DNA of 64,000 nt from Tistrella mobilis KA081020-065 (GTDB lineage: Bacteria; Pseudomonadota; Alphaproteobacteria; Tistrellales; Tistrellaceae), in NCBI RefSeq assembly GCF_000264455.2, contig NC_017958.1:186001-250000 (forward strand), read 5' to 3'. The notes beneath the pieces are model-generated. The model saw nothing but the letters and a program-made list of their open reading frames with translations. It was not told the DNA's origin and ran no database searches. Position 1 is the first letter of the stretch. Each line of letters begins with the position of its first letter. A program made the translations under genes and the position numbers. Of the stretch, positions 45,680 through 58,141 are shown piece by piece.

Positions 45680-46801
45680 TCACTGCAGCCGGCCGCGGAC
45701 GAAGACCACCGCCACCGTGAGCGTCACCGCCGCGATGACCGCCAGTGGCCAGAGATTGGCTGCCACCTCGGAAGCCGGCAATGCCTTCACGAACGAACCT
45801 TCGACGATGATCAGGAAGTGCTTCAGCGGGATGGCCTCTGCCATCCAGCGCAGCAGCCTCGGCATGTTGTCGACCGGCGTGGCGAAGCCCGACATCAGGA
45901 TCATCGGCACGACCACTGCGAAGGTGCCGAGAATGGCCTGCTGCTGTGTGGCGCAGAGCGAGGAAATGACCAGGCCTACCCCGACGACCGAGAGGATGAA
46001 CAGCATCAGGCTTGCAATCAGCAGCGGGAAGGAGCCGGTAAAGGGAATACCGAAACCGAAAATGCCCGCCAGGATCATGATCGTGCCGAGCAGGCTTCCG
46101 ATGATCAGCGCCGGCACGGTCTTGGCCAGGATGATCTCTCCCGGTGTGGTGGGGGACACCAGCAATTGGTCGAAAGTGCCAAGCTCGCGCTCGCGGGCAA
46201 TGGACAGGGCGGTCAACAGCAGCGCAATGGTGGTGGTCAGGATACCGGACAGTCCCGGCACCACGAACCAGCGGTAAATGAGATTGGGGTTGAACCAGTG
46301 CCGCAGCGCCACCGCCTCGCCCGCCGCAGCCCCTCCGGCTTCTCCAACCCGGATGCGTGCCCCCAGTTGTTGGGCGATGGTGGAAAGATAGCCGTTGGTG
46401 ATCTGGGCCGCATTGGCGCGGCGGCCATCGAGCAGCAGCTGCGCCTCGGCGGTCTCTCCACGCTCCACCCGGCGGGAGAAATCGGGCGGGATGGCGAGCG
46501 CTGCGATCACCGTGCGGTCGTCGATCAGCCGGGCCAGCGCCGCCTGATCATGGACCGGGCGAAGCCGATGTACGAAACCTGCCGCTCCGATCCGGGCCAC
46601 GAGTTCGGTCGACCAGCGGCCCTGATCCTGATCGTAGACGGCGATATCGACATTGCGCACCTCCAGCGTCACCGCGAAGGAGAAGACCAGCAGCTGCATC
46701 AACGGCGGCACGATCAATACCGTACGGCTGCGCGGGTCACGCAGGATGCTGAGCAGTTCCTTGACGATCTGGGCGCGGAGACGCGGGGGAACGAGGCGCA
46801 T
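45680..46801 (-). CDS. ybhR: ABC-2 type permease, YbhR-like
   Basis: A 373-residue inner-membrane permease. It starts with the usual KELLSILRDPRSRTVLIVPPLMQLLVFSFA anchor in pieces, a periplasmic domain (VDIAVYDQDQGRW... VIAALAIPPDFSRRV), then HWFNPNLIYRWFVVPGLSGIL and five hydrophobic helices. ARERELGTFDQLLVSPTTPGEIILAK is the ABC-2 signature. It is the last gene of a five-gene run in the same order as Escherichia coli cecR-ybhG-ybhF-ybhS-ybhR, an exporter linked to drug or cation resistance. Confidence 0.85.
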   Translation of the reverse strand: MRLVPPRLRAQIVKELLSILRDPRSRTVLIVPPLMQLLVFSFAVTLEVRNVDIAVYDQDQGRWSTELVARIGAAGFVHRLRPVHDQAALARLIDDRTVIAALAIPPDFSRRVERGETAEAQLLLDGRRANAAQITNGYLSTIAQQLGARIRVGEAGGAAAGEAVALRHWFNPNLIYRWFVVPGLSGILTTTIALLLTALSIARERELGTFDQLLVSPTTPGEIILAKTVPALIIGSLLGTIMILAGIFGFGIPFTGSFPLLIASLMLFILSVVGVGLVISSLCATQQQAILGTFAVVVPMILMSGFATPVDNMPRLLRWMAEAIPLKHFLIIVEGSFVKALPASEVAANLWPLAVIAAVTLTVAVVFVRGRLQ

Positions 46802-46804
46802 GGG

Positions 46805-47931
46805 TCAGCTGTCCAGGCTCTTGGCGGTCCTGAGCCGCGCGATGATGAAGAACACCGAGCCGATCGCCAGCATGACCAGCAGATCCGGCAGCAACACCCG
46901 CCAGACATCCCCGGCCAGGAACACCGTCTGCAGGGCGGAGACGAAATAGCGCGCCGGTACCAGATTGGTGAGCATCCGGATCGGCCAGGGCATGGAGGCG
47001 ATCTCGAACAGGAAGCCCGACAGCATGAAGGCAGGCAGGAAGCCGGTGAGCAGCGCCACCTGGGCCGCAACAAACTGGTTGCGGGCGATGGCCGAGATCA
47101 ACAACCCCTGCCCCAGAGCCGGCACCAGAAAGGCCGCGGTCAGGGCCAGCAGCGCCCCCCATGAGCCCCGCAACGGCACATCGAAGACGTGTATGGCGAG
47201 AAGTGCACATCCCGTCGTCGTCATGAGCCCGAGCGCGAAATAGGGGAGCAGCTTGCCCACCAGAATCTCGGTCACCGACGCCGGGGTGGAAAGGATCGCC
47301 TCCATTGTGCCACGCTCCCATTCCCGCGCCACGACCAGCGCGGTCAACAGGGTGCCGATCATGGTCATGATGATCGCGATGGCTCCGGGAACCAGGGCAC
47401 GCCGGCTCTCCAGCTCGGCATTGAACCAGAAGCGTGATACCAGCGAGACGGGGCGGGCGCTGCTGCCCCCTCACGCCCCGCCTGCCAGGCCGCCACCAGC
47501 CCCAGCGTGTAGTTGGCGACGAAACTGGCGGTGTTGGGCTGGGAGCCGTCGGTGATCACCTGAACCAGCGGCGTCTCTCCCGTCTGAAGCCTGCGGGTGA
47601 AATCCTGCGGGATGACCACATAGCCGCGCAGCCGCCCCGCGACGACGCCGGCTTCGACATCACGCCGGTCGCGGGCGGGGGTGACGGTGAAATAGCGGCT
47701 GCCGGCAAAGGCCGCCGCCAGCGAGCGGGCCTCGGCATCATCGGTTTCCGCCACCACACCCACCGGCACCCGGCGGATGTCGAGTGAGACCGCGTCGGCA
47801 TAGAGAAACAGCATCACCACCGGCAGCACGAAGGCGATCAGGATCGCCGACGGGTCCCGCAGAATCTGCAGGCTCTCCTTGACGATCAGAGCCGCAAGCC
47901 GCCCGGGGTCGAAGCGCCGCACCGGTGTCAT
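46805..47931 (-). pseudogene. ybhS: ABC-2 type permease, YbhS-like, split by a frameshift
   Basis: The first frame (47931-47365) codes the N-terminal half, with RLAALIVKESLQILRDPSAILIAFVLPVVML and VIPQDFTRRLQTGETPLVQVITDGSQPNTA in pieces. It goes astray after GREGAAAPAP. The expected continuation VSLVSRFWFNAELESRRALV, then PGAIAIIMTMIGTLL, is found one frame over and runs on to 46805. A missing single base in or near the G- and C-runs at about 47443-47470 explains this. Either the exporter is inactive or the base was lost in sequencing. The ATP-binding and other permease genes look intact. Confidence 0.8.
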
Positions 47932-49682
47932 GCACCCGCCTCCCGGTCTGCGTCATGCGCCTCGATCAGCCCGATAAAGGCGTCCTCCATGGTCGGCTCC
48001 GGCAGATCCCGGGTCACGACCCGGGCCTTGAGTGCATCGGGCGTGTCGAGGGCGATCAGTTTCGAGCGGTACATCAACGCCACCCGATCGCAGTATTCGG
48101 CCTCGTCCATAAAATGGGTGGTCACCATCACCGTCACCCCCTTGCGGACCAGGCCATTGATATGGGTCCAGAATTCGCGGCGGGTGATCGGATCGACACC
48201 CGAGGTCGGTTCGTCGAGAAACAGCACCGGCGGCCGGTGCATCAGGGCGCAGGCCAGCGCCAGCCGCTGGCGGTAGCCAAGCGGCAGATCTCCTGGCGCC
48301 CCCGTCAGATGACGGCCGAGCTGAAAGGTCTCGATCATCTCCTCGACCCGCGCCCGCCGCACCCGCCCCTCCAGCCCGTAGACACCGGCCGAGAACTCAA
48401 GGTTCTGACGGACCGAGAGCAGGCCATAGAGCGAAAATTTCTGCGCCATATAGCCAAGCTGCCGCTTCGCCTCGCTGGTCGCCCGGCGCAGATCCAGCCC
48501 GGCGACCTCGGCCGCACCGGCGCTTGGCCGCAACAGGCCGCAAAGCATCTTGAAAGTGGTCGACTTGCCCGCACCGTTCGGACCGAGCAGGCCGAAGATC
48601 TCGCCGCGGCTGACCTCGAAGCTGACATCCTCGGTGGCGGTGAAGGTGCCGAAGCGCCTGGTGAGATGGCGGCAGGATACCGTCACCTCCGTCTCCAACC
48701 GCACCGGATCCATGCGTTCGGCGAGCCGTGAGGTGCCGCCAGGGCCGCCGCCGAGCAGGTCGATGAAGGCGTCCTCGAAGCGCGGGGTCACCGCCTCGAC
48801 CCGCGCACCGGTTTCGGCTGCGAACGGTGCCAGCAGATCGGGCGTACCGCCCTCGCGCAGCACCAGGCGGACGGCGTCGCCCTGAATGACCCCGTCGCTC
48901 ACGCCCGGCAGGCCCAGCGCCTCGGACAGGACCTGCCGGCGATCACGCCGCGGCCCGGCCAGACGGAAGCTGCGGTCATGGAGCCGCGCGGTCAGCCCTG
49001 CCGGCGGACCGTCATATTCCAGCCGGCCTTCATTCAGCAGCAAAACGGTCTCGCAGCGCTCGGCCTCGTCGAGATAGGCAGTGGACCAGACCACCGCCAT
49101 CCCCTCCCCGGTCAACGCCTCGACCATCCGCCAGAGGTCCTGGCGGCTGACGGGATCCACCCCCACACCGGGCTCGTCGAGCAGCAGCACCCCGGGTGTA
49201 CCCATCAGCGCGCAGGCAAGTCCCAGCTTCTGCTTCATGCCGCCCGAAAGCCGCCCGGCCAGTCGGCTGGTGAAAGGGCCGAGCCGCGTGAAACCGAGCA
49301 GGCGCTCGAAAACCGGTTGCGCCCGCCGCGGCGCGATGCCGCGCAACCTGGCATAGAGACGCAGATTCTCGATCACCGAGAGGTCTTCATAGAGCCCGAA
49401 GCGCTGCGGCATATAGCCGATCGATGGCGCCACCCGGTCGCGGTCGTGGCTGACATCGACCCCGGCCAAACGGATGGTGCCGGCATCAGGAGCCATAAGT
49501 CCGGCCATCAGCCGCATCAGCGTCGTCTTGCCGGCACCATCCGGCCCGACCAGCCCGGTCAACCGGCCACGCAGGATCCGGGCATCGATGCCCTTCAACG
49601 CCTCGACACCGGGGAAGCTCTTGACCACCCCCGCGACATCGACCGCGACGGCGTCATCCCCTGCCGGCGCGGCTGCCGCCAT
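47928..49682 (-). CDS. ybhF: ABC exporter ATPase with two nucleotide-binding domains, YbhF-like
   Basis: A 584-residue protein with two complete ATPase domains in tandem. The first has Walker A LVGPDGAGKTTLMRLM, signature RLSGGMKQKLGLACAL and Walker B VLLLDEPGVGVD. The second has LLGPNGAGKSTTFKML, a diverged signature DLPLGYRQRLALACAL and VLFLDEPTSGVD. A membrane-fusion partner gene lies upstream and two ABC-2 permease genes downstream, all overlapping or nearly so. Together they form an exporter of the YbhGFSR type spanning the inner membrane and periplasm. Confidence 0.9.
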   Translation of the reverse strand: MAAAAPAGDDAVAVDVAGVVKSFPGVEALKGIDARILRGRLTGLVGPDGAGKTTLMRLMAGLMAPDAGTIRLAGVDVSHDRDRVAPSIGYMPQRFGLYEDLSVIENLRLYARLRGIAPRRAQPVFERLLGFTRLGPFTSRLAGRLSGGMKQKLGLACALMGTPGVLLLDEPGVGVDPVSRQDLWRMVEALTGEGMAVVWSTAYLDEAERCETVLLLNEGRLEYDGPPAGLTARLHDRSFRLAGPRRDRRQVLSEALGLPGVSDGVIQGDAVRLVLREGGTPDLLAPFAAETGARVEAVTPRFEDAFIDLLGGGPGGTSRLAERMDPVRLETEVTVSCRHLTRRFGTFTATEDVSFEVSRGEIFGLLGPNGAGKSTTFKMLCGLLRPSAGAAEVAGLDLRRATSEAKRQLGYMAQKFSLYGLLSVRQNLEFSAGVYGLEGRVRRARVEEMIETFQLGRHLTGAPGDLPLGYRQRLALACALMHRPPVLFLDEPTSGVDPITRREFWTHINGLVRKGVTVMVTTHFMDEAEYCDRVALMYRSKLIALDTPDALKARVVTRDLPEPTMEDAFIGLIEAHDADREAGA

Positions 49683-49686
49683 GGCG

Positions 49687-50706
49687 TCAGTCCTCCCTGT
49701 CCAATGTCACCGTTACCGGCATGCCCTGACGCAGCCCGTCATCGGCATCGGTGACCACGATCCGCAGCCGGTAAACCAGATCCGTGCGAAGCGCCGTGGT
49801 CTCGACCGATTTGGGCGTGAACTCGGCGCGGGGAGAGACGAAACCGATCCGCCCGTCATAGACCCGACCGCCGCTATCGGTGGTGACCCGAACCGCCGCG
49901 CCCGGCACGGCACGTCCAAGATCCGGTTCCGCCACATAGGCGCGGACATAGACCGGATCCTTCAACGACAGGGTATAGACAGGCGTGCCCGCGGCAGCCA
50001 TGCTGCCCGGTTCCAGGATCCGGGCGAGGATGGTGCCGGCGGCAGGCGCCGCAAGCCGGGCATCCTCCAGCGCCGTCCGCGCCTGATCGCGCGCCGCCCC
50101 GGCCGCCGCCAGTGCCGCCTCACCGGCGGCGATGTCTTCGGCCCGCGCACCGGCTTCGAGCAGGGCAAGCGCCTGACGGCGCGCCTCCAGAACCGCCGCC
50201 GCCTCGTCGCGGGCGGCACGGGCGGCATCTGACTCGCTTTCGCTCACCACCCGGGAGCCGACCAGAGAGCGCTTGCGCCGATAATCGATCTCGGCGAAGC
50301 GCAGGGTCGCCTCGGCCTGGGCCAGCAGGGCGGCGGCTTCGGCGATCTCTTGCGGCCGGTTGCCATTGCGCAGCCGGTCGAGCGATGCCTGCGCCTGGGC
50401 GCGTTCGGCTTCGGCGCGGGCGGCCGCATCGCGGAGCGGCCGGTCGTCGAGCACCGCCACCACATCGCCCGCCTGCACGGCATCACCTTCCTCGGCCGCC
50501 ATTTCCGCGACCCGCCCCCCCTGGCGGAAGGCGAGCGCCACCTCGCGGATGTCGACATTGCCGTAGAGCACCAGCCGGGCATCGCTGGCCGCCCCGGACA
50601 CAAGCCGGTCCCGCAGCCAACCATTGGCCGGCGGCCAGAACAGGCCGATGGCGACCGCAGCAGCCATCCCCCCCAGAAGCAGAGCGACACGCAACGCGGC
50701 TTTCAT
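49687..50706 (-). CDS. ybhG: HlyD-family membrane-fusion protein, YbhG-like
   Basis: A 339-residue periplasmic adaptor. One N-terminal membrane helix (ALLLGGMAAAVAIGLFW) is followed by a lipoyl-like segment EEGDAVQAGDVVAVLDDR and a long coiled coil rich in Ala, Arg and Glu (ARAEAERAQAQASLDRLRNG... EAAALLAQAEATLRFAEIDYRRK). The second lipoyl half is LAAPAAGTILARILEPGSMAAAGTPVYTLSL, and a beta-barrel ends it. It links the inner-membrane ABC transporter to the outer membrane. It overlaps the TetR gene by 4 nt. Confidence 0.88.
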   Translation of the reverse strand: MKAALRVALLLGGMAAAVAIGLFWPPANGWLRDRLVSGAASDARLVLYGNVDIREVALAFRQGGRVAEMAAEEGDAVQAGDVVAVLDDRPLRDAAARAEAERAQAQASLDRLRNGNRPQEIAEAAALLAQAEATLRFAEIDYRRKRSLVGSRVVSESESDAARAARDEAAAVLEARRQALALLEAGARAEDIAAGEAALAAAGAARDQARTALEDARLAAPAAGTILARILEPGSMAAAGTPVYTLSLKDPVYVRAYVAEPDLGRAVPGAAVRVTTDSGGRVYDGRIGFVSPRAEFTPKSVETTALRTDLVYRLRIVVTDADDGLRQGMPVTVTLDRED

Positions 50707-51365
50707 GAGCGATCTCCGGCCGGGACAAGCATGGCGGTAAGGTTGCGGCGAAGCTGCCCCTGGATTGCGACGATCTCGTCCGGACCGATCGCCGGCTGGT
50801 CAATGATCCGGAGCACCGCGGCCCGTGCGACCCGGAAGACCAGCATCTGGCCCATGATGGTCGCCACCACCAGCCGTGGATCCCCTGCCTGTGCCATGGG
50901 ATCGATATGTTGTACCAACCGGATCAGGCCACGCGAGACTGGCCGCATCAACCCGTCGTGAAGCAGGGCGAAAGCCGCCGTCGGCGATTGCTGTTCACGT
51001 ACCACAAGCTGCGCCCAGGGATTGCTCTCGGTTCCCGCCATGAGGAGGATGAAAGCGTCGGTCATCCGGAACAGCAGGGCGAGCCCGTCCTCGCGACCCG
51101 GAGGAAGGTCGCCATCCAGCGCTGCCTCGATCTCCGCCAGGACGGGGCCGATCCGGGCACGGATCTGCTCGACGATATCCGCAAACACCGCCAGATACAG
51201 GCCTTCCTTGTTCCGGAAGTGATAGCCGATCAGCGCCTGATTGACCTTCGCCGTCTCCGCGATGGTACGCGTGCGGGTAGCATCGAAACCGTCGCGTCCG
51301 AACACGTCGATCGCCGCCCGGATCAATGCCTCCCGCGTTGCATCGCCACGTGTCGCCTGTGTCAT
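50703..51365 (-). CDS. cecR: TetR-family regulator of the export operon, CecR-like
   Basis: A 220-residue TetR protein with DUF1956-type effector domain. The helix-turn-helix is TRTIAETAKVNQALIGYHFRNKEGLYLAVFADIVEQIR. It is the first gene of the exporter operon, overlapping the adaptor gene by 4 nt, exactly as cecR leads ybhGFSR in Escherichia coli, where it represses the operon. An AT-rich imperfect palindrome about 53 nt upstream (51418-51437) is the probable operator. Confidence 0.86.
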   Translation of the reverse strand: MTQATRGDATREALIRAAIDVFGRDGFDATRTRTIAETAKVNQALIGYHFRNKEGLYLAVFADIVEQIRARIGPVLAEIEAALDGDLPPGREDGLALLFRMTDAFILLMAGTESNPWAQLVVREQQSPTAAFALLHDGLMRPVSRGLIRLVQHIDPMAQAGDPRLVVATIMGQMLVFRVARAAVLRIIDQPAIGPDEIVAIQGQLRRNLTAMLVPAGDRS

Positions 51366-51499: not shown

Positions 51500-52615
51500 T
51501 CAGGCTGCGGTGTCGTGGCGGCTGCGGCGCGCGGCGTTCACGCCGGCCAGGAATTCCAGGCCCTCGGCGGCGATGGCATCGCCCACCGTGCCCTCGCCCT
51601 CCCCCGCCAGCGCGCCCAGATCGACCCACTGGGCATAGAGCGGCCGGGTCCGGTCGGTGATGATGCCCGCATGCAGCAGGGTCTTGACCAGCACCCGGAA
51701 GACATTGGTGCTCTCGGACATCTCGGCGCGACGGACGTCGGAGGTATAGCTCTCCTTCATGGCATCCCGCACCCATTCCCAATCAAGCCCCAGCGGCGCA
51801 TAGAGCGCCTGCTTCTGGCTGGGATGGAGCATGTTGAACATCAGAATCTGAAAGCACTGCGCCGCCCAGTCCTCGACGCCGTTGCGCGCCTTTTCGTCCA
51901 TCATCGGCAGGGCATCGCGGCCCCAGAGCTTGCCGGCGCGATGGTGGAAGGCCTCGTCGGTCATCACCAGCTGGGTCAGCCGGCGCAGCACCGGGTCCTG
52001 GCTCTTGGAATGCAGGCTGGCGAAAATGCCCATGGCGAGGCCTTCGACCAGAAGCTGCATGCCGACGATCTTGCGCGGCACGTCGGTCAGGTCGACCAGT
52101 TCCTTCAGCAGCCCGCCCAGCACGTCGGAGGCCGGCATCGGCGCACCCCAGCGGGTGTGGATATAGCGGCTGAAGGCGGTGACATGGCGGGCTTCCTCGC
52201 GCGCCTGATTGGCGGCATATTCCACCACCCCCGGATCGGCGAGCATATGGCAGAGGCTGGCCGACAGCGACAGCGCCCCCTGCTCGCCATGCAACACGCT
52301 CGACAGCCACCAGCGCGCGCTTTCATTGGCGAACCAGACCCGCTGTTCGGCGGTCAGCCGGTCGGCGACAGCGCTGTTCAGTTCGGGCACGATCGAGGCC
52401 GGCATGACCGTCTCGGTCGCCATGTCGAACGGCTCGTCGAAGCGGATATAGGCGGTGTCGAGCGGGTCCCAGAAATGGCGATGGGTCTCGGCGATGATCT
52501 CATCGAACAGATCGGTGCGCTCGGCATAGCGCGGCACCCGGATCTGATCGAGAAAGCCGGCCGGTCCGACCGCTCGGAAGGCACCGCTCCGGCTGACGCT
52601 GGTGGTCTCGGGCAT
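51500..52615 (-). CDS. Ferritin-like diiron protein
   Basis: A 371-residue helical protein with the ligands of a carboxylate-bridged diiron site: Glu111 (HGEQGAL), Glu141 and His144 (REEARHVTAF), Glu191 (LLVEGLAMG), and Glu221 with His224 (MTDEAFHHRAG). This is the ferritin-like/ribonucleotide-reductase-like arrangement used by oxygenases and oxidases. I do not recognise the subfamily. It is the most downstream gene of a group with a PaaA-like diiron protein, a radical SAM protein and a Rieske protein. The ATG at 52615 is preferred. A 22-bp palindrome lies about 100 nt upstream, so its expression is probably controlled separately. Confidence 0.75.
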   Translation of the reverse strand: MPETTSVSRSGAFRAVGPAGFLDQIRVPRYAERTDLFDEIIAETHRHFWDPLDTAYIRFDEPFDMATETVMPASIVPELNSAVADRLTAEQRVWFANESARWWLSSVLHGEQGALSLSASLCHMLADPGVVEYAANQAREEARHVTAFSRYIHTRWGAPMPASDVLGGLLKELVDLTDVPRKIVGMQLLVEGLAMGIFASLHSKSQDPVLRRLTQLVMTDEAFHHRAGKLWGRDALPMMDEKARNGVEDWAAQCFQILMFNMLHPSQKQALYAPLGLDWEWVRDAMKESYTSDVRRAEMSESTNVFRVLVKTLLHAGIITDRTRPLYAQWVDLGALAGEGEGTVGDAIAAEGLEFLAGVNAARRSRHDTAA

Positions 52616-52711
52616 GGATGTCTCGTCCCCTGACTGATGCGGACCTGGGCTGATACGGCCGGATGGCATCGGGCGCGGATCGCGCCTCTTGTTCTTGTCT
52701 TAAGGATAGAA

Positions 52712-52733
52712 TGATTGACGTATACGTCAATCA
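52712..52733. promoter_or_regulatory. 22-bp perfect palindrome upstream of the ferritin-like gene
   Basis: The 22 bases from 52712 to 52733 are their own reverse complement, with central ATTGACGTATACGTCAAT (52714-52731). TGACG-x4-CGTCA half-sites of this type are typical of operators for TetR-family or similar dimeric regulators. It lies 97-118 nt before the ferritin-like ATG on the minus strand. No regulator gene is adjacent. Confidence 0.75.
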
Positions 52734-52798
52734 AGGAGCGCACGACATGATCCGGCCATCGGCCGGCAGCCGCGCGCCCCGTCGGAAACCGCCGACGA

Positions 52799-53551
52799 TC
52801 AGAGGAACTTCCGATTCGCCTCGGCCTCCGGCACCTTCAGCCCCAGCACCTCGACCCGCGGGGTGATCTGGGCGATGAAGCGCCGGCGGGCTTCTTCATT
52901 GGTGTACTGGCGCAGGCCCCACTTCACATAAAGCGGCGAGCGCTTGCTTTCCGAGCTGCCGAAGAGGTCGAGCGTGATCGGCCAGGCCTTTTCCAGCATC
53001 GCCTGGGCATCCTTCAGCCCCTCTTCCGTCTGGCAGTATTCCCAGACGATCCGGTAGCCCTGGGCGACGTGGTTGTGCTCGTCGATGATGACGCTGGTGC
53101 ACATGTCGGCGATCGGCTTGTACGAGCTTTTCGACATCTCGTGGATCTGCGCCAGCACGGCGGCTTCGCCGATGAACGAGAACATGCCGCGGCCCAGCCA
53201 GTTCTCGATCCGGCGCACACCCTCGGTGCGGTAGAATTCGCGCTGATCCAGATGCTGCTGCAGCATATAGGCGGTGTCGATGCCGATATCGTCCAGCACC
53301 GCCTTGCCGCGGATGTAGTGATCCATCTCCTCGGCGGCACGCTCGCAGCACACCTTGCGCTCGAAGGCGGTCGGCGCCATCGGATAGAAGATCTGGATGT
53401 AGTCGTCGGCACCGGTCAGCTCGCCCTCGGTATGGGCGCGCAGCTGATGGATCACCAGCTCCTGGTACTCGTCCGGCATCTCGCGGAAGGCCTTGGCATC
53501 CGGCACGAGCAGCCGCTCCCCGGCGGCAGCATGAGCGGTCTGTTCGGTCAT
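52799..53551 (-). CDS. PaaA/PaaC-like diiron protein (phenylacetic acid catabolic family)
   Basis: A 250-residue helical protein of the PaaA/PaaC family. Two E-x2-H motifs are visible, Glu75-Met-Asp-His78 (EEMDHYIRG) and Glu158-His-Asn-His161 (IIDEHNHVAQG), with Glu129 (FIGEAAVLAQI) between, which suits a diiron centre. PaaA forms the epoxidase of phenylacetyl-CoA breakdown, but the partners PaaB-E are absent here, so another substrate is likely. The next gene upstream is a thioesterase, 205 nt away, and that gap holds two repeat copies. A ribosome site AAGGAAC precedes the ATG. Confidence 0.75.
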   Translation of the reverse strand: MTEQTAHAAAGERLLVPDAKAFREMPDEYQELVIHQLRAHTEGELTGADDYIQIFYPMAPTAFERKVCCERAAEEMDHYIRGKAVLDDIGIDTAYMLQQHLDQREFYRTEGVRRIENWLGRGMFSFIGEAAVLAQIHEMSKSSYKPIADMCTSVIIDEHNHVAQGYRIVWEYCQTEEGLKDAQAMLEKAWPITLDLFGSSESKRSPLYVKWGLRQYTNEEARRRFIAQITPRVEVLGLKVPEAEANRKFL

Positions 53552-53571
53552 CTTGAGCGTTCCTTTTTGGT

Positions 53572-53650
53572 GGTCCCTCGCCGGGCGGGCGCTGCCGCGC
53601 CCTTGGCCGCCGCCTCAGTGGCGGCTTGGACCGACCCGGGGGTCGGTTCC
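53572..53650 (+). repeat. Dispersed hairpin repeat, copy B
   Basis: Near-identical to copy C 109 nt further on and shares its core with copy A at 5101. It contains a GC-rich arm, the core CCTTGGCCGCCGCCTCAGTG plus GGCGGCT, and a final hairpin GGACCGACC-CGGG-GGTCGGTTC. It lies just upstream of the ribosome-binding site of the PaaA-like gene on the opposite strand. Confidence 0.75.
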
Positions 53651-53680
53651 GAAGGGAATTGGTGGTGGTGGTGATTCCGT

Positions 53681-53758
53681 GGTCCCTCGCCGGGCGGGCG
53701 CTGCCGCGCCCTTGGCCGCCGCCTCAATGGCGGCTTGAACCGACCTGGAGGTCGGTTC
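53681..53758 (+). repeat. Dispersed hairpin repeat, copy C
   Basis: Same element as copy B, with core ...GCCTCAATGGCGGCT and a perfect terminal hairpin GAACCGACC-TGGA-GGTCGGTTC (53737-53758). The end coincides with the TGA stop codon of the thioesterase gene (53757-53759). Copies B and C form a direct repeat in an operon gap. Confidence 0.8.
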
Positions 53759-54236
53759 AAAGAGGGGGGCTGAGGGATGTCGGTGGCTGGTTGACGGCGG
53801 TGACGACGCCCGCAGCGCGGACGCGGGGGCCGCCGCGGGCGTCGGAAATGGTGGCGGCAAGCAGGACCGTGCCGGTGCCGGCCTGGCCCTCGATTTCGGC
53901 ACGGGCGATCACCCCCCGGGGCAGGACGGGGCCCAGCCAGCGCTGATCCAGCGAGACCAGGCGCGAGGGGGCATCGCCCAGAACGGCGGCGGCAGCGGCC
54001 CGCATGGCGCGTTCCATCAGCGCCTGAAGGATGCCGCCATTGATCAGCGCACGTTCGGCGCCGCCCTTGTGAAAGGGCTGAAGGCGGGTGATGGTCGCGA
54101 TCGCCGCATCGGGGCCGTCGGCCTCGACCCGGATCGCGTTGTGCAGCGCCACCGGCTCGGCCGAAAGCCGGGCCGCAGCCAGGGCGATCCCGGCCGCGGC
54201 GTCGGTTTCCGGTGCATCGGCCGGCAGCACGGTCAC
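53757..54236 (-). CDS. Hotdog-fold PaaI-type thioesterase
   Basis: A 159-residue protein with hotdog features. RLQPFHKGGAERALINGGILQALMERAMRAAAAAVLG corresponds to the central helix with the usual HGG-x replaced by INGG. LVSLDQRWLGPVLPRGVIARAEIEGQAGTGTVLLAATISDARG is the beta sheet region. Thioesterase activity on acyl-CoA is inferred from the fold. It overlaps the radical SAM stop by 4 nt, so both are coupled. Its own stop touches repeat copy C. Confidence 0.72.
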   Translation of the reverse strand: MTVLPADAPETDAAAGIALAAARLSAEPVALHNAIRVEADGPDAAIATITRLQPFHKGGAERALINGGILQALMERAMRAAAAAVLGDAPSRLVSLDQRWLGPVLPRGVIARAEIEGQAGTGTVLLAATISDARGGPRVRAAGVVTAVNQPPTSLSPPL

Positions 54237-55498
54237 GCCACCACCTCAGGCGCCCGGACCCGGATCTCGCCCGCCTCTGCCGCCTCGCGGCCGGCAACGG
54301 CGGCCAGAAGCGGGTTGGGCAGGGTTTCGCCATGGGCCAGATCGACCGAGACCTGCGCGGCATGGCCGTCGCCGATCGGGTCCATCACCGCCTGACGGCG
54401 GCCGGCATCCTTGGTCCAGTGGAACGGACCCCAGATGAACTGCTTCCAGTAGCTCTCGGCCATCTCGACCCAGGTCTCGAGCATCACCTTGTCGGTGAGG
54501 AAGCGGTCCATGCTGACCACCATCCACGAGATCACCGCCTGGCTGTCGCGGCAGCCGTTGCAATGGCCCGAGGTGCAGCAGAACTTCACCGTCTTCAGGT
54601 CCGCCGCCCAGGTGTTGAAGAAGGGCAGCACCGGGTTGCCGTTGACCAGCCGGTCGGCATGGCCGGCATGATCCTGCGACAGCGACGGGCAGACGTCATA
54701 GCCGAAGCGGCCGAAATGGCTGCGGCCGGTGATCATGGTGCGGATGTAGTAGGGCGTGCTGACCACGGTCTCGGGATATTTCGCCCGCACCCGAAGTGCC
54801 TCTTCCAGCAGCTCTTCCTGCCGGGCAAGCGCCGTCGGATCCTCGGCGTCATAGGCGCTGTAGAAGTTGAAGTTGACCCGGTTACCGTTGTCGCGGATCC
54901 GGACCACCGTGTCTTCGATATGCTCGATGCCGGTCTCGGTCAGCGCATAGATGAAGCCCGCGCGCGGGTCGTCGCGATAATTGCCGAGCGCAGTCTCGAA
55001 CAGGCCGCTGAAGGTGCGGCCGCTGGGCTTGATGCCGCGCAGCTGATCGTCCATCGGCCCGCCGCCGAACAGGGTCAGGCCGATCGCGACATTCTCGAAC
55101 CCCTCCATCGGCAGCCGGCGCAGCCCGTTGGACGAGATCGTCACATAGGGCATGTGCTTGACATAGAGCCGCAGCCGATCGGGAAAGAGCGTCGGCTCGC
55201 CGCCGATCACCAGGGCGGCATTCACCCGCCGTTCCTTGGTCTCCTTGATCAGAAAGGCTTCCAGCGCCTCGGCATCCTTGGCCTCCCGCGTGGCGGTGTC
55301 GTGGCCGTATTCGAAGAACCAGCAGCCCTTGCAACGGATGTTGCAGGCATTGGTGAGGTGATATTCGCTGACGCGGATCTTGCGGGAGAAGCGCAGCACC
55401 GCCTGCAGGCGGTCGCGAAGCTCGTCCTCGCCGTCGAGCAACGCCTCCAGGCGTTGCATGCGCTCGCGCGTCACAGTGCGATTTTCGTCGGTCTTCAT
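54233..55498 (-). CDS. Radical SAM protein with C-terminal cysteine cluster, function unknown
   Basis: A 421-residue protein with the CxxxCxxC cluster motif at Cys52, Cys56 and Cys59 (HLTNACNIRCKGCWFF). The GGEPT glycine motif is at about 99-103 (VIGGEPTLFPDRLRLY). The C-terminal region has Cys270 (YDVCPSL) and FCCTSGHCNGC (307, 308, 313, 316), which could bind auxiliary clusters as in SPASM proteins. No RiPP precursor or known partner is adjacent; the neighbours are a thioesterase, diiron proteins and a Rieske oxygenase. The substrate is unknown. GGEPT proteins of this type often modify peptides or small molecules. Confidence 0.8.
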   Translation of the reverse strand: MKTDENRTVTRERMQRLEALLDGEDELRDRLQAVLRFSRKIRVSEYHLTNACNIRCKGCWFFEYGHDTATREAKDAEALEAFLIKETKERRVNAALVIGGEPTLFPDRLRLYVKHMPYVTISSNGLRRLPMEGFENVAIGLTLFGGGPMDDQLRGIKPSGRTFSGLFETALGNYRDDPRAGFIYALTETGIEHIEDTVVRIRDNGNRVNFNFYSAYDAEDPTALARQEELLEEALRVRAKYPETVVSTPYYIRTMITGRSHFGRFGYDVCPSLSQDHAGHADRLVNGNPVLPFFNTWAADLKTVKFCCTSGHCNGCRDSQAVISWMVVSMDRFLTDKVMLETWVEMAESYWKQFIWGPFHWTKDAGRRQAVMDPIGDGHAAQVSVDLAHGETLPNPLLAAVAGREAAEAGEIRVRAPEVVA

Positions 55499-55697
55499 CC
55501 GAGGCAGCCCCTTCGTCGTCGTCGTTTCGCGGATCGGCGGGGGTCGCAGATTGAGAGCCGGGCGGACGCACGCAGCTTCCCGGGCAGGCGCGTGGTGGCC
55601 ACGCGCCCTCAGAAGATCTGGTCGTCATATCAGTGCGGTGTCGCCGCGCCGGCTCAGGACCCGGGGATCACAGGGTCCGGGATCACGGGATCCGGGA

Positions 55698-56879
55698 TCA
55701 CTCGGCCGCTTCGGCGTAGCGGACCCAATCGGCCTGACCGTTCAGCATCGCCTCCACCTCCTGGTGGAACCAGGCGAGAGCCTGTTCGTAACGGCCGAAG
55801 ACGAAATGGTCGTTGGCACCGGAATTGAGCGCCGCCTGGATGGCCTCGGAGCGGTCGCTGTCCTCTTCGGTCACCTCGAAGACGACATGCATGCTCTTCG
55901 ACCAGATGTCCTGGGCGGTGGCGCTTTCCAGATATTTCGGCGGCACCAGCGTGTAGGCCGGCAGCTTGCAATTGTCGATGCCGTCGGGCCAGACCTGGAA
56001 GATGGCGCAATGATCGGGCAGCACCGCCAGCATCAGATTGGGGAAGATGGTGTAGAGCACGGTGGAATGGTCGCGCAGGTTCCAGGTCTCGCGATCCTGG
56101 TCGCGGATCTCGGGGATCGAGCGCTTGGGCAGCACCACCCGGGCATGCGGCGACAGCCGGTCGAAGGCGGCGGTGTTGTCCAGGAAGACCGGCCAGATGG
56201 TCTTCGTGTGGGTGCGGCGGGTGTGATAGTTCTCAAGGAACGTATCCAGCGCCAGCTTCCAGTTGGTCTTCTTCTCCAGCTGGGCAGGCCGCCAGACGAC
56301 GTAATCGGCGGTGCCGATATGCTCAAGCTCATGCGCCATCGGCCCCAGCCAGGCATCGACATCCACCTTGGGCGCGGTCGGGTCCACCTGGACGAAGACG
56401 AAGCCATAGCGCTCGGCGCAATGCAGCCGGCGCAGGCCCATCTCCTCGCGCTTCATGTTCGGGAAGCCTTCCGCCGCGGGCACGCCGACCAGCTTGCCGT
56501 CGGTACCGTAGGTCCAGGCATGATAGGGGCAGACGAAGCTGCGCTTGTGGCTGCCGCATTCCTCCCAGACCAGCTTGGTCCCGCGGTGGCGGCAGGCGTT
56601 CACAAAGGCGTTGACCGAACCGTCCTGGGTGCGGACCAGCAGGATCGGCACCCCGGTCACGTCCATGGTCTTGTAGTCGCCCGGCTTGGGCAACTCGCTG
56701 CCATGGGCGACGATGATCGGGTTGCGGCGGAAGATGATCTCGACCTCGCGCTTGTAGCGCTCGGGATCGATATAGCGGCTGACCGGATTGTGATACTCGG
56801 CCGGGTCCATTTCCGTGGTGCGACGATCGATCATATCGAACACGCGATCGATCAGATGCACCTGGGTAGCGTGATCCAT
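55698..56879 (-). CDS. Rieske non-heme iron oxygenase, large subunit
   Basis: A 393-residue ring-hydroxylating-type oxygenase. The Rieske cluster ligands are Cys96 and His98 (NACRHRGTKL) and Cys117 and His120 (FVCPYHAWTYG). The mononuclear iron site is in DTFLENYHTRRTHTKTI (His219, His224). It would hydroxylate or demethylate an organic substrate using O2 and electrons from a reductase that is not in this window. Length and ligands look intact. A good promoter lies upstream. The radical SAM gene follows 199 nt downstream on the same strand. Confidence 0.86.
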   Translation of the reverse strand: MDHATQVHLIDRVFDMIDRRTTEMDPAEYHNPVSRYIDPERYKREVEIIFRRNPIIVAHGSELPKPGDYKTMDVTGVPILLVRTQDGSVNAFVNACRHRGTKLVWEECGSHKRSFVCPYHAWTYGTDGKLVGVPAAEGFPNMKREEMGLRRLHCAERYGFVFVQVDPTAPKVDVDAWLGPMAHELEHIGTADYVVWRPAQLEKKTNWKLALDTFLENYHTRRTHTKTIWPVFLDNTAAFDRLSPHARVVLPKRSIPEIRDQDRETWNLRDHSTVLYTIFPNLMLAVLPDHCAIFQVWPDGIDNCKLPAYTLVPPKYLESATAQDIWSKSMHVVFEVTEEDSDRSEAIQAALNSGANDHFVFGRYEQALAWFHQEVEAMLNGQADWVRYAEAAE

Positions 56880-56986
56880 GGCGTCCTCATCGAATTATTG
56901 ATTTTTAGAGCATCGGGTCGGGTCTGCGGACGGGCACGCATCCGGGAAGGACGGCTGGCTGCCCTGGGGACTCAAACTCGGTTCAA

Positions 56987-57015
56987 AATATACCTGTGGT
57001 TGTGATCTATCGCAA
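56987..57015 (-). promoter_or_regulatory. Sigma70-type promoter of the Rieske gene
   Basis: On the minus strand TTGCGA (57010-57015) is followed by a 17-nt spacer and TATATT (56987-56992). Four of six -35 bases and five of six -10 bases match the consensus. The spacing is ideal, and the ATG of the Rieske gene is about 107 nt downstream. The whole 309-nt gap 56880-57188 holds no recognisable gene; an AT-rich core surrounds this promoter. Confidence 0.65.
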
Positions 57016-57188
57016 TGCACGAAATAGATGAACAATAATCTACCCATGATTCGAAATCTTCGACTTGGGCCCGATCCGGATGATGGACGTGTGCAGGCCG
57101 TCGAAAAATTCCGGGGGACGGCTCCGGCCGCGCATGATGGCGGGCGGGTCCGTCCCCCGGATGCAGGTATGTAATGGCGCCGGCCGGT

Positions 57189-57659
57189 TCAGTTGCGCGG
57201 GTGCAGCACGGCGCAGGTGGTTGTCGCATGGGCGTAAAGCGTGCCGTCGGGGCCGATCAGCCGACCTTCCGCCGTTCCCAGCATGCGGCCGGTATGGATG
57301 GCGCGGCCGATGGCGCGCACCGGGCTGATGGTCACCGGCAGGGCCCGCACCATGTTGACCTTCAGCTCTACGGTGGTAGAGCCCACCCCCGCCGGCATCA
57401 GGCTGTGGATGGCGCAGGCGACCGCGGCGTCCAGCAGGGTCGCCATATAGCCGCCATGGGCGACGCCCATGCCGTTCAGCACATGCGGGCCCGGCTCGGC
57501 CACGATTTCCGCCTCGCCGCGTTCGATCCGCGCCAGGCGGAAGCCCAGCGTCTCGGCGATCGGCGACAGCGAGCGGCCGCCATCGATATAGGCCTGCAGC
57601 TGCGCCAGCCCGTCGAGGCCGGCGATGTCGTGAGCTTCGGCATCTCCGGTCGCACTCAT
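57189..57659 (-). CDS. PaaI-type hotdog thioesterase
   Basis: A 156-residue protein with the PaaI thioesterase pattern. LNGMGVAHGGYMATLLDAAVACAIHSL carries the HGG with the nearby Asp on the helix, and STTVELKVNMVRAL is the conserved beta strand. It probably hydrolyses an acyl-CoA released during the pathway. It overlaps the MaoC gene by 4 nt, so the two are coupled. Start at 57659; the frame is open to 57689. Confidence 0.85.
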   Translation of the reverse strand: MSATGDAEAHDIAGLDGLAQLQAYIDGGRSLSPIAETLGFRLARIERGEAEIVAEPGPHVLNGMGVAHGGYMATLLDAAVACAIHSLMPAGVGSTTVELKVNMVRALPVTISPVRAIGRAIHTGRMLGTAEGRLIGPDGTLYAHATTTCAVLHPRN

Positions 57660-58141
57660 GCCACCACCACCCGCCGACGGAGCATCCACATGCTGCGCAT
57701 GGTGCAGATCACCTCGTCATTCTGGTTGTAGGTCTTGTAGAGCAGTTTGACGATACCGCGGTCCGGCTTCGACCGGCTGGGGATGACCTCCGTCACCTCC
57801 AGCTCCAGACGGATGGTATCGCCGGGACGCATCGGCTTCAGCCAGCGGACCTCGTCGAGGCCGGGCGAGCCCATCGACGCGGTCGAGACGATCTGCGCCT
57901 CCAGCACCAGCCTGAAGCCGAGCGCGAGGGTATGGAAGCCGCTGGCGATGATCCCGCCATAGATGCTGGCGGCAGCCGCTTCGCGATCGACATGGAAGGG
58001 CTGGTTGTCGAACTGGCTGGCGAAGGCGATGATCTCGTCTTCGGTGACGCTGCGCGCGGGCGTGCGGAAGACCTGCCCGGCGGCGAAATCCTCGAAATGG
58101 AGGTCGGTCACGGGCGGGGTGGCGGCGGTGTCTGCGGACAT
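57656..58141 (-). CDS. MaoC-like hydratase/dehydratase
   Basis: A 161-residue hotdog protein of the MaoC dehydratase family. DLHFEDFAAGQVFRTPARSVTEDEIIAFASQFDNQPFH is the start, with the catalytic Asp and His in the region DNQPFHVDREAA. The helix reads IYGGIIASGFHTLALGFRL, and VRWLKPMRPGDTIRLELEVTEV follows. It would hydrate an enoyl-CoA or a similar acid. It is the first gene of the group that runs to 51500 and is coupled to a thioesterase gene. AAACG-AA-CGTTT (58186-58197) lies about 45 nt upstream and could be an operator. Confidence 0.85.
   Translation of the reverse strand: MSADTAATPPVTDLHFEDFAAGQVFRTPARSVTEDEIIAFASQFDNQPFHVDREAAAASIYGGIIASGFHTLALGFRLVLEAQIVSTASMGSPGLDEVRWLKPMRPGDTIRLELEVTEVIPSRSKPDRGIVKLLYKTYNQNDEVICTMRSMWMLRRRVVVA

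Follow-up and report, generated by a model that had tools for sequence, protein, structure and literature searches.

A mobile core of radical SAM, diiron and hotdog-fold genes within an oxidative locus of Tistrella mobilis

Gene content of the locus

The 64,000-nucleotide stretch of the Tistrella mobilis KA081020-065 genome analysed here (NC_017958.1, positions 186,001 to 250,000; hereafter the window) carries seven genes on its minus strand, within window positions 51500-58141, which a reading made from the sequence alone had grouped as a single oxidative route linked to coenzyme A (CoA). The listing of open reading frames (ORFs) agrees with that reading in the number, strand and position of the genes, which are, from upstream to downstream:

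57656..58141, minus strand: MaoC-type hydratase (PF01575, E 2e-21), directly behind ligA; membership of the group doubtful
57189..57689, minus strand: TE1, PaaI/4HBT hotdog thioesterase with a canonical HGG...D motif (TIGR00369, 71.5 bits vs a cut-off of 36.6); membership doubtful
55698..56879, minus strand: Rieske non-heme iron oxygenase (PF00355 and PF00848, Ring_hydroxyl_A); a lineage-specific addition to the core unit
54233..55498, minus strand: radical S-adenosylmethionine protein (rSAM; PF04055) of SPASM/twitch type with one auxiliary four-Cys site; core gene
53757..54236, minus strand: TE2, divergent hotdog protein (4HBT-like) in which NGG...E replaces HGG...D, with a weak 4HBT_3 match; core gene
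52799..53551, minus strand: PaaA-like single-gene diiron oxygenase (PF05138, E 7e-17); core gene
51500..52669, minus strand: second diiron carboxylate protein with an R2/R2lox/AurF-like fold and invariant E, ExxH, E, ExxH ligands; separately regulated

All seven genes are intact, and ratios of nonsynonymous to synonymous substitution (dN/dS) of 0.02-0.21 between two species of the genus indicate purifying selection (0.016 for the Rieske gene; 0.076 for ligA). Gene order is the same in a second assembly of the source species. The two couplings seen earlier are real, as MaoC overlaps TE1 and rSAM overlaps TE2 by 4 bp. Profile searches bore out the assignments of MaoC, TE1, Rieske, rSAM and PaaA-like proteins, whereas TE2 gave only a weak hotdog-like match under the curated cut-off and the second diiron protein stayed under every family cut-off, its nearest family being AurF (PF11583; 21.1 bits vs 29.6). 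The description of the set as oxidative, thioester-linked and undescribed is supported; its treatment as one gene group is unconfirmed because intergenic gaps in the seven-gene stretch reach 130-310 bp (309 bp from TE1 to Rieske), two separate promoter and operator signals lie within it, and membership is lineage-specific.

A three-gene core across genomes

The rSAM, hotdog and PaaA-like genes recur as a core, and in most genomes that carry it the other four window genes are not with it. A neighbourhood comparison thus goes against the idea that all seven genes travel together: the five-gene set from Rieske to the second diiron gene was seen in only one other lineage, a Rhodospirillales metagenome-assembled genome (L001), in which the Rieske protein is 56% identical and occupies the same position. 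The genes thus occur apart from one another in relatives, the outcome that the sequence-only reading had named as its refutation; all seven exist as described, yet they are not inherited together as a single pathway. The source genome and its sister species (G001) each hold a second copy of the core, beside which none of the Rieske, MaoC, TE1 and second diiron genes is present.

Homologues of rSAM were collected from 50 loci, with partners counted as genes within 2 kb. The partner is a PaaA-like gene in 22, a cytochrome P450 in 16 (Nocardia and Streptomyces) and an alpha/beta hydrolase in nine, the remaining three having none; a hotdog gene of 4HBT or MaoC type is also present in 16 of the 22 PaaA-type loci, and TE2 shares an NG...D/E region with the hotdogs of other core loci. 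Sequence distances of rSAM and PaaA-like proteins co-vary (r=0.92, 18 loci, 0/2000 permutations). On the rSAM tree the P450 partner marks a single clade (100/100) and PaaA partners require about five changes. Matches to solved structures identified the Nocardia upstream partner as a P450, and among five distant rSAM homologues (25-33% identity) four stand beside P450s, two of these near MBOAT acyltransferases, the fifth (L141) lying close to a contig end. Both subfamilies are sharply bounded: among about 400 Pseudomonadota genomes they occur only in the source genome, at 627 and 620 bits for rSAM (next score 123) and 424 and 408 bits for the PaaA-like protein (next score 115).

Several loci place the core, or the rSAM gene, among biosynthetic or acyl-transfer genes. 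In an actinomycete, ketosynthase, carrier-protein, reductase and non-ribosomal peptide synthetase (NRPS) genes, identified by reading, flank the PaaA-rSAM pair; a Streptomyces rSAM locus includes a WS/DGAT-type protein; and the Burkholderia stagnalis core adjoins a cluster of NRPS type that encodes a chlorinating enzyme. This last cluster, on a plasmid (L061 6925-17019), comprises adenylation, carrier-protein and chlorinating enzyme genes, an acyl-homoserine lactone (AHL) synthase, the PaaA-rSAM-thioesterase core and a cupin, and is likely an uncharacterised natural-product cluster. The AHL synthase does not lead us to propose a homoserine lactone as the product; it adjoins an RsaM-like gene by our own reading, and its role there is probably regulation only.

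Mobile form of the core

Core proteins encoded on Alteromonas plasmids and on the IncC plasmid pVIM-Exn692 are identical by protein accession. On the latter, a VIM-type plasmid of Enterobacter (NZ_OR497351.1, 169444-179784; L148 19445-29785), the core is cargo of a complete 10,341-bp Tn3-family element. Its terminal inverted repeats, at L148 19445 and 29785, are perfect over 27 bp, and the 5-bp target duplication AAACA flanks it on both sides. An IS21 element now splits its transposase gene, and the transposon also encodes a resolvase/recombinase. The cargo consists of the core, here PaaA-like, rSAM and a MaoC-type hotdog gene, together with a short response-regulator gene, and the Alteromonas plasmids carry the same cargo; the main text of the papers describing those plasmids leaves the cassette genes unnamed. 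No copy of the core was found in 5,426 Escherichia coli genomes. Since the core stands alone on the transposon and plasmids, three genes are apparently enough for function, and the substrate would have to come from many hosts or their surroundings.

Metal ligands and predicted structures

The iron-binding residues on which the sequence-only reading had relied are all intact. In rSAM the CX3CX2C cysteines (C52/C56/C59) are invariant in 34 homologues, as are the four extra cysteines 270/307/313/316, which are putative ligands of an auxiliary cluster. No curated subfamily is reached, the best NCBIfam match being viperin (33.6 bits vs a cut-off of 180). The predicted structure (mean predicted local distance difference test score, pLDDT, 82) has BlsE as its best VIA fold match (Z 17.5), with the SPASM peptide maturases SkfB, anSME and ChlB also among the best, and its N-terminus is a short helix pair that leaves no room for a recognition domain. 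Like the small-molecule SPASM/twitch enzymes BlsE, SpeY, DesII and AbmM, the protein has a CX3CX2C core plus a single auxiliary cluster site; it differs from them in forming its own sequence family and in being genetically tied to an O2-activating enzyme.

The PaaA-like protein retains E44/E75/H78/E129/E158/H161, invariant in 20 sequences, and aligns with PaaA structures over 220 residues (E 6e-19). Like PaaA of the phenylacetyl-CoA epoxidase PaaABCDE, it is a ferritin-like diiron protein with all ligands kept and CoA-linked neighbours; unlike PaaA, it is paired with rSAM and scores far under the equivalog cut-off (TIGR02156, 83.4 bits vs 280). The earlier remark that Paa epoxidase partners are missing holds, as none adjoins and no PaaC-type protein was found in the source genome, where PF05138 is represented solely by the two PaaA-like proteins, both encoded next to an rSAM gene. 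The Rieske protein has both its cluster ligands (C96/H98/C117/H120) and the mononuclear iron histidines (H219/H224).

In the second diiron protein E129/E159/H162/E209/E239/H242 are invariant in 24 sequences. Its fold and its E, ExxH, E, ExxH ligands are those of R2-like ligand-binding oxidases (R2lox), the N-oxygenases AurF and CmlI, and aldehyde-deformylating oxygenase; the model (pLDDT 86) matches R2, R2lox and AurF equally at a VIA Z of about 20 (AurF 20.1), so the fold favours none of them. It differs from these enzymes in belonging to a separate alphaproteobacterial family with a fatty-acid-regulon operator.

Transcription units and the second diiron family

The arrangement of the genes suggests three transcription units, namely MaoC-TE1 behind ligA, Rieske-rSAM-TE2-PaaA-like, and the second diiron gene alone, as predicted from two features:

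56987..57027, minus strand: predicted promoter region of the Rieske-rSAM-TE2-PaaA unit (TTGCGA-17-TATATT at 57015-56987)
52712..52733, no strand assigned: perfect 22-bp palindrome TGATTGACGTATACGTCAATCA, candidate operator of fatty-acid-regulon type, overlapping the -35 element of the second diiron gene

The stretch holding the promoter-like site upstream of Rieske is identical in the sister species, where its flanks diverge; the weight of this prediction rests on that conservation because promoter-like sites barely exceed chance (2 vs 1.0 expected). MaoC and TE1 are probably just a neighbouring pair. In the sister species a transposase gene of IS110 type, a family assigned by reading, separates MaoC from TE1 (L059 5013-6347), and neither gene was found in the 0.9 kb upstream of Rieske in L001, where the contig ends and the pair could lie further off.

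The second diiron family has a scattered, multi-copy distribution in Alphaproteobacteria: with a loose threshold it is present in 62 of 385 genomes, the strong matches being 47-61% identical. At 19 loci outside the genus the other six window genes are not alongside, except for one weak MaoC match. Second diiron homologues in five other genomes have the palindrome TTnACGTnnACGTnAA 55-170 bp upstream. In the source genome it also adjoins a MerR regulator gene accompanied by thiolase and acyl-CoA ligase genes, adjoins the FadL gene, and occurs close to genes for SCP2 and acyl-CoA ligase. Because it precedes fadL, fadD, thiolase and the regulator, the palindrome points to a fatty-acid regulon that would take in the second diiron gene, with MerR as the putative binding protein. 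The motif presumably resembles that of LiuR. LiuR belongs to the MerR regulators and controls the catabolism of branched-chain amino acids, an acyl-CoA pathway (PMC5343134), and both here and in such MerR-type acyl-CoA regulons a palindrome accompanies a MerR gene and genes of acyl-CoA metabolism; the present case differs in that the palindrome precedes an uncharacterised diiron gene.

The operator TTGACGTTTACGTAAACGTCAA was located in the source genome at L158 (G000:C4:938659-938680), L157 and L156, in the company of MerR, thiolase, acyl-CoA ligase, FadL and SCP2 genes.

Inferred function and alternative explanations

Radical SAM enzymes are usually oxygen-sensitive, and diiron oxygenases and P450s need O2. 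The pairing of rSAM with an oxygenase is nevertheless kept across Alpha-, Beta- and Gammaproteobacteria and Actinobacteria, with the class of oxygenase swapping by lineage and the genes borne on a transposon, which suggests a widely useful reaction that has yet to be assigned. What the core makes or remodels is probably an unusual group resembling a fatty acid. We give about an even chance to the reading that it is a mobile three-gene oxidative module acting on an acyl thioester, to which the Rieske and second diiron genes were added in this genus to give a composite locus. The substrate would be bound to CoA or to a carrier protein; the PaaA-like enzyme would use O2 to hydroxylate, epoxidise or desaturate its acyl part, rSAM would draw hydrogen from the same acyl part through a 5'-deoxyadenosyl radical, leading to rearrangement, ring closure or decarboxylation, and the hotdog protein may afterwards hydrate the product or release it by hydrolysis. 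In this genus the gain of the Rieske oxygenase by the core unit, with the fatty-acid-regulon second diiron gene beside it, could allow up to three O2-using steps, and in the P450 clades the P450 would take the oxygenase role, acting in turn with rSAM on one acyl-linked substrate. Linkage and conservation of the core genes, the exchange of partners, mobility, the complete sets of metal ligands and the operator are observations; the acyl substrate, the sequence of steps and the product are inferred.

The acyl context counted in favour of this comprises the hotdog, MaoC, WS/DGAT and MBOAT genes, the ketosynthase, carrier-protein and reductase genes identified by reading, and the operator on the second diiron gene. 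Several observations weigh on the other side. TE2 and the core hotdogs are without the usual HGG motif, and because of this any thioesterase activity is putative; some core-like loci show no acyl gene beyond the hotdog; BlsE, the best fold match of rSAM, works on a sugar nucleoside and the other fold matches on peptides; the operator serves a single gene outside the core; and the oxygenase swap may reflect different substrates between clades.

Four other explanations were weighed, each of which is weaker than that of a mobile acyl-directed core. That all seven genes serve one dedicated CoA-linked catabolic or biosynthetic pathway, as first proposed, accords with their compact arrangement on one strand, with purifying selection on every gene, with the unchanged order in the second assembly and with the five of seven genes kept in L001; we nonetheless judge it unlikely given the separate promoter and operator signals, a MaoC-TE1 pair missing upstream of Rieske in L001 and split in the sister species, and the occurrence elsewhere of the core alone and of the second diiron family alone. 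Alternatively, the core could confer resistance or detoxification by oxidising some toxic compound, which would account for its travel on a transposon; cargo status in a Tn3-family element, carriage on Alteromonas and IncC plasmids and the sufficiency of three genes would speak for this. Chromosomal copies within NRPS- and polyketide synthase-type gene clusters suggest production rather than removal, and with the 5,426 E. coli genomes yielding no match we judge this idea unlikely too.

A ring route of Paa type, in which the PaaA-like protein would epoxidise an aryl-CoA, MaoC would act as a PaaZ-like oxepin hydrolase and the thioesterase would be PaaI-like, draws on PaaA being the nearest relative of the PaaA-like protein, on the resemblance of the window MaoC to the PaaZ MaoC domain (E 1e-18) and on a weak match of TE1 to PaaI. 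It is quite unlikely in view of the low equivalog score, a source genome with neither a PaaC-type protein nor PaaK above cut-off, the absence of conserved MaoC-TE1 linkage to the core, and an Alteromonas MaoC without a PaaZ match. Equally improbable in our view is maturation of a ribosomally synthesised and post-translationally modified peptide, with rSAM modifying a small precursor and the oxygenase tailoring it. P450-rSAM pairs do occur in peptide pathways, and the peptide maturases among the rSAM fold matches point the same way; against this, a precursor-peptide search found no small ORF beside rSAM common to distant loci, the interval separating P450 from rSAM in Nocardia holds no short gene that is conserved, the modelled rSAM N-terminus is too short for a recognition domain, and the partners are hotdog proteins.

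Beyond the mobile acyl-directed core, we tentatively propose, with distinctly less than even confidence, an undescribed partnership in which an rSAM family typically acts together with an O2-activating partner, diiron or P450 by lineage, on one acyl-linked substrate within a mobile three-gene module that yields a new functional group or signal. Each enzyme superfamily is known, and a categorically new reaction is possible. The mobile rSAM-oxygenase pairing with a hotdog gene was not found in the open-access literature, which is limited evidence, and a search of the same literature for links between radical SAM and PaaA-type or AurF-type diiron proteins with thioesterases was a weak negative. 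With just three genes, the compact plasmid-borne form lends itself to testing by expression in a single laboratory host.

Neighbouring genes and minor features

Downstream of the locus (window 45680-51365) lie genes for a CecR-like TetR regulator, an HlyD-like protein, a double ATP-binding cassette (ABC) ATPase and an ABC-2 permease, which resemble a ybhGFSR-type efflux operon. They were considered as members of the group and rejected: the TetR regulator is CecR-like and, although present in the second assembly of the species, was not found beside the cluster in the sister species. In the gap between TE2 and the PaaA-like gene (window 53552-53756) a GC-rich block (about 75 bp) is present twice; the sister species has it once. 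The permease ORF is apparently split over frames (window 46805-47931).

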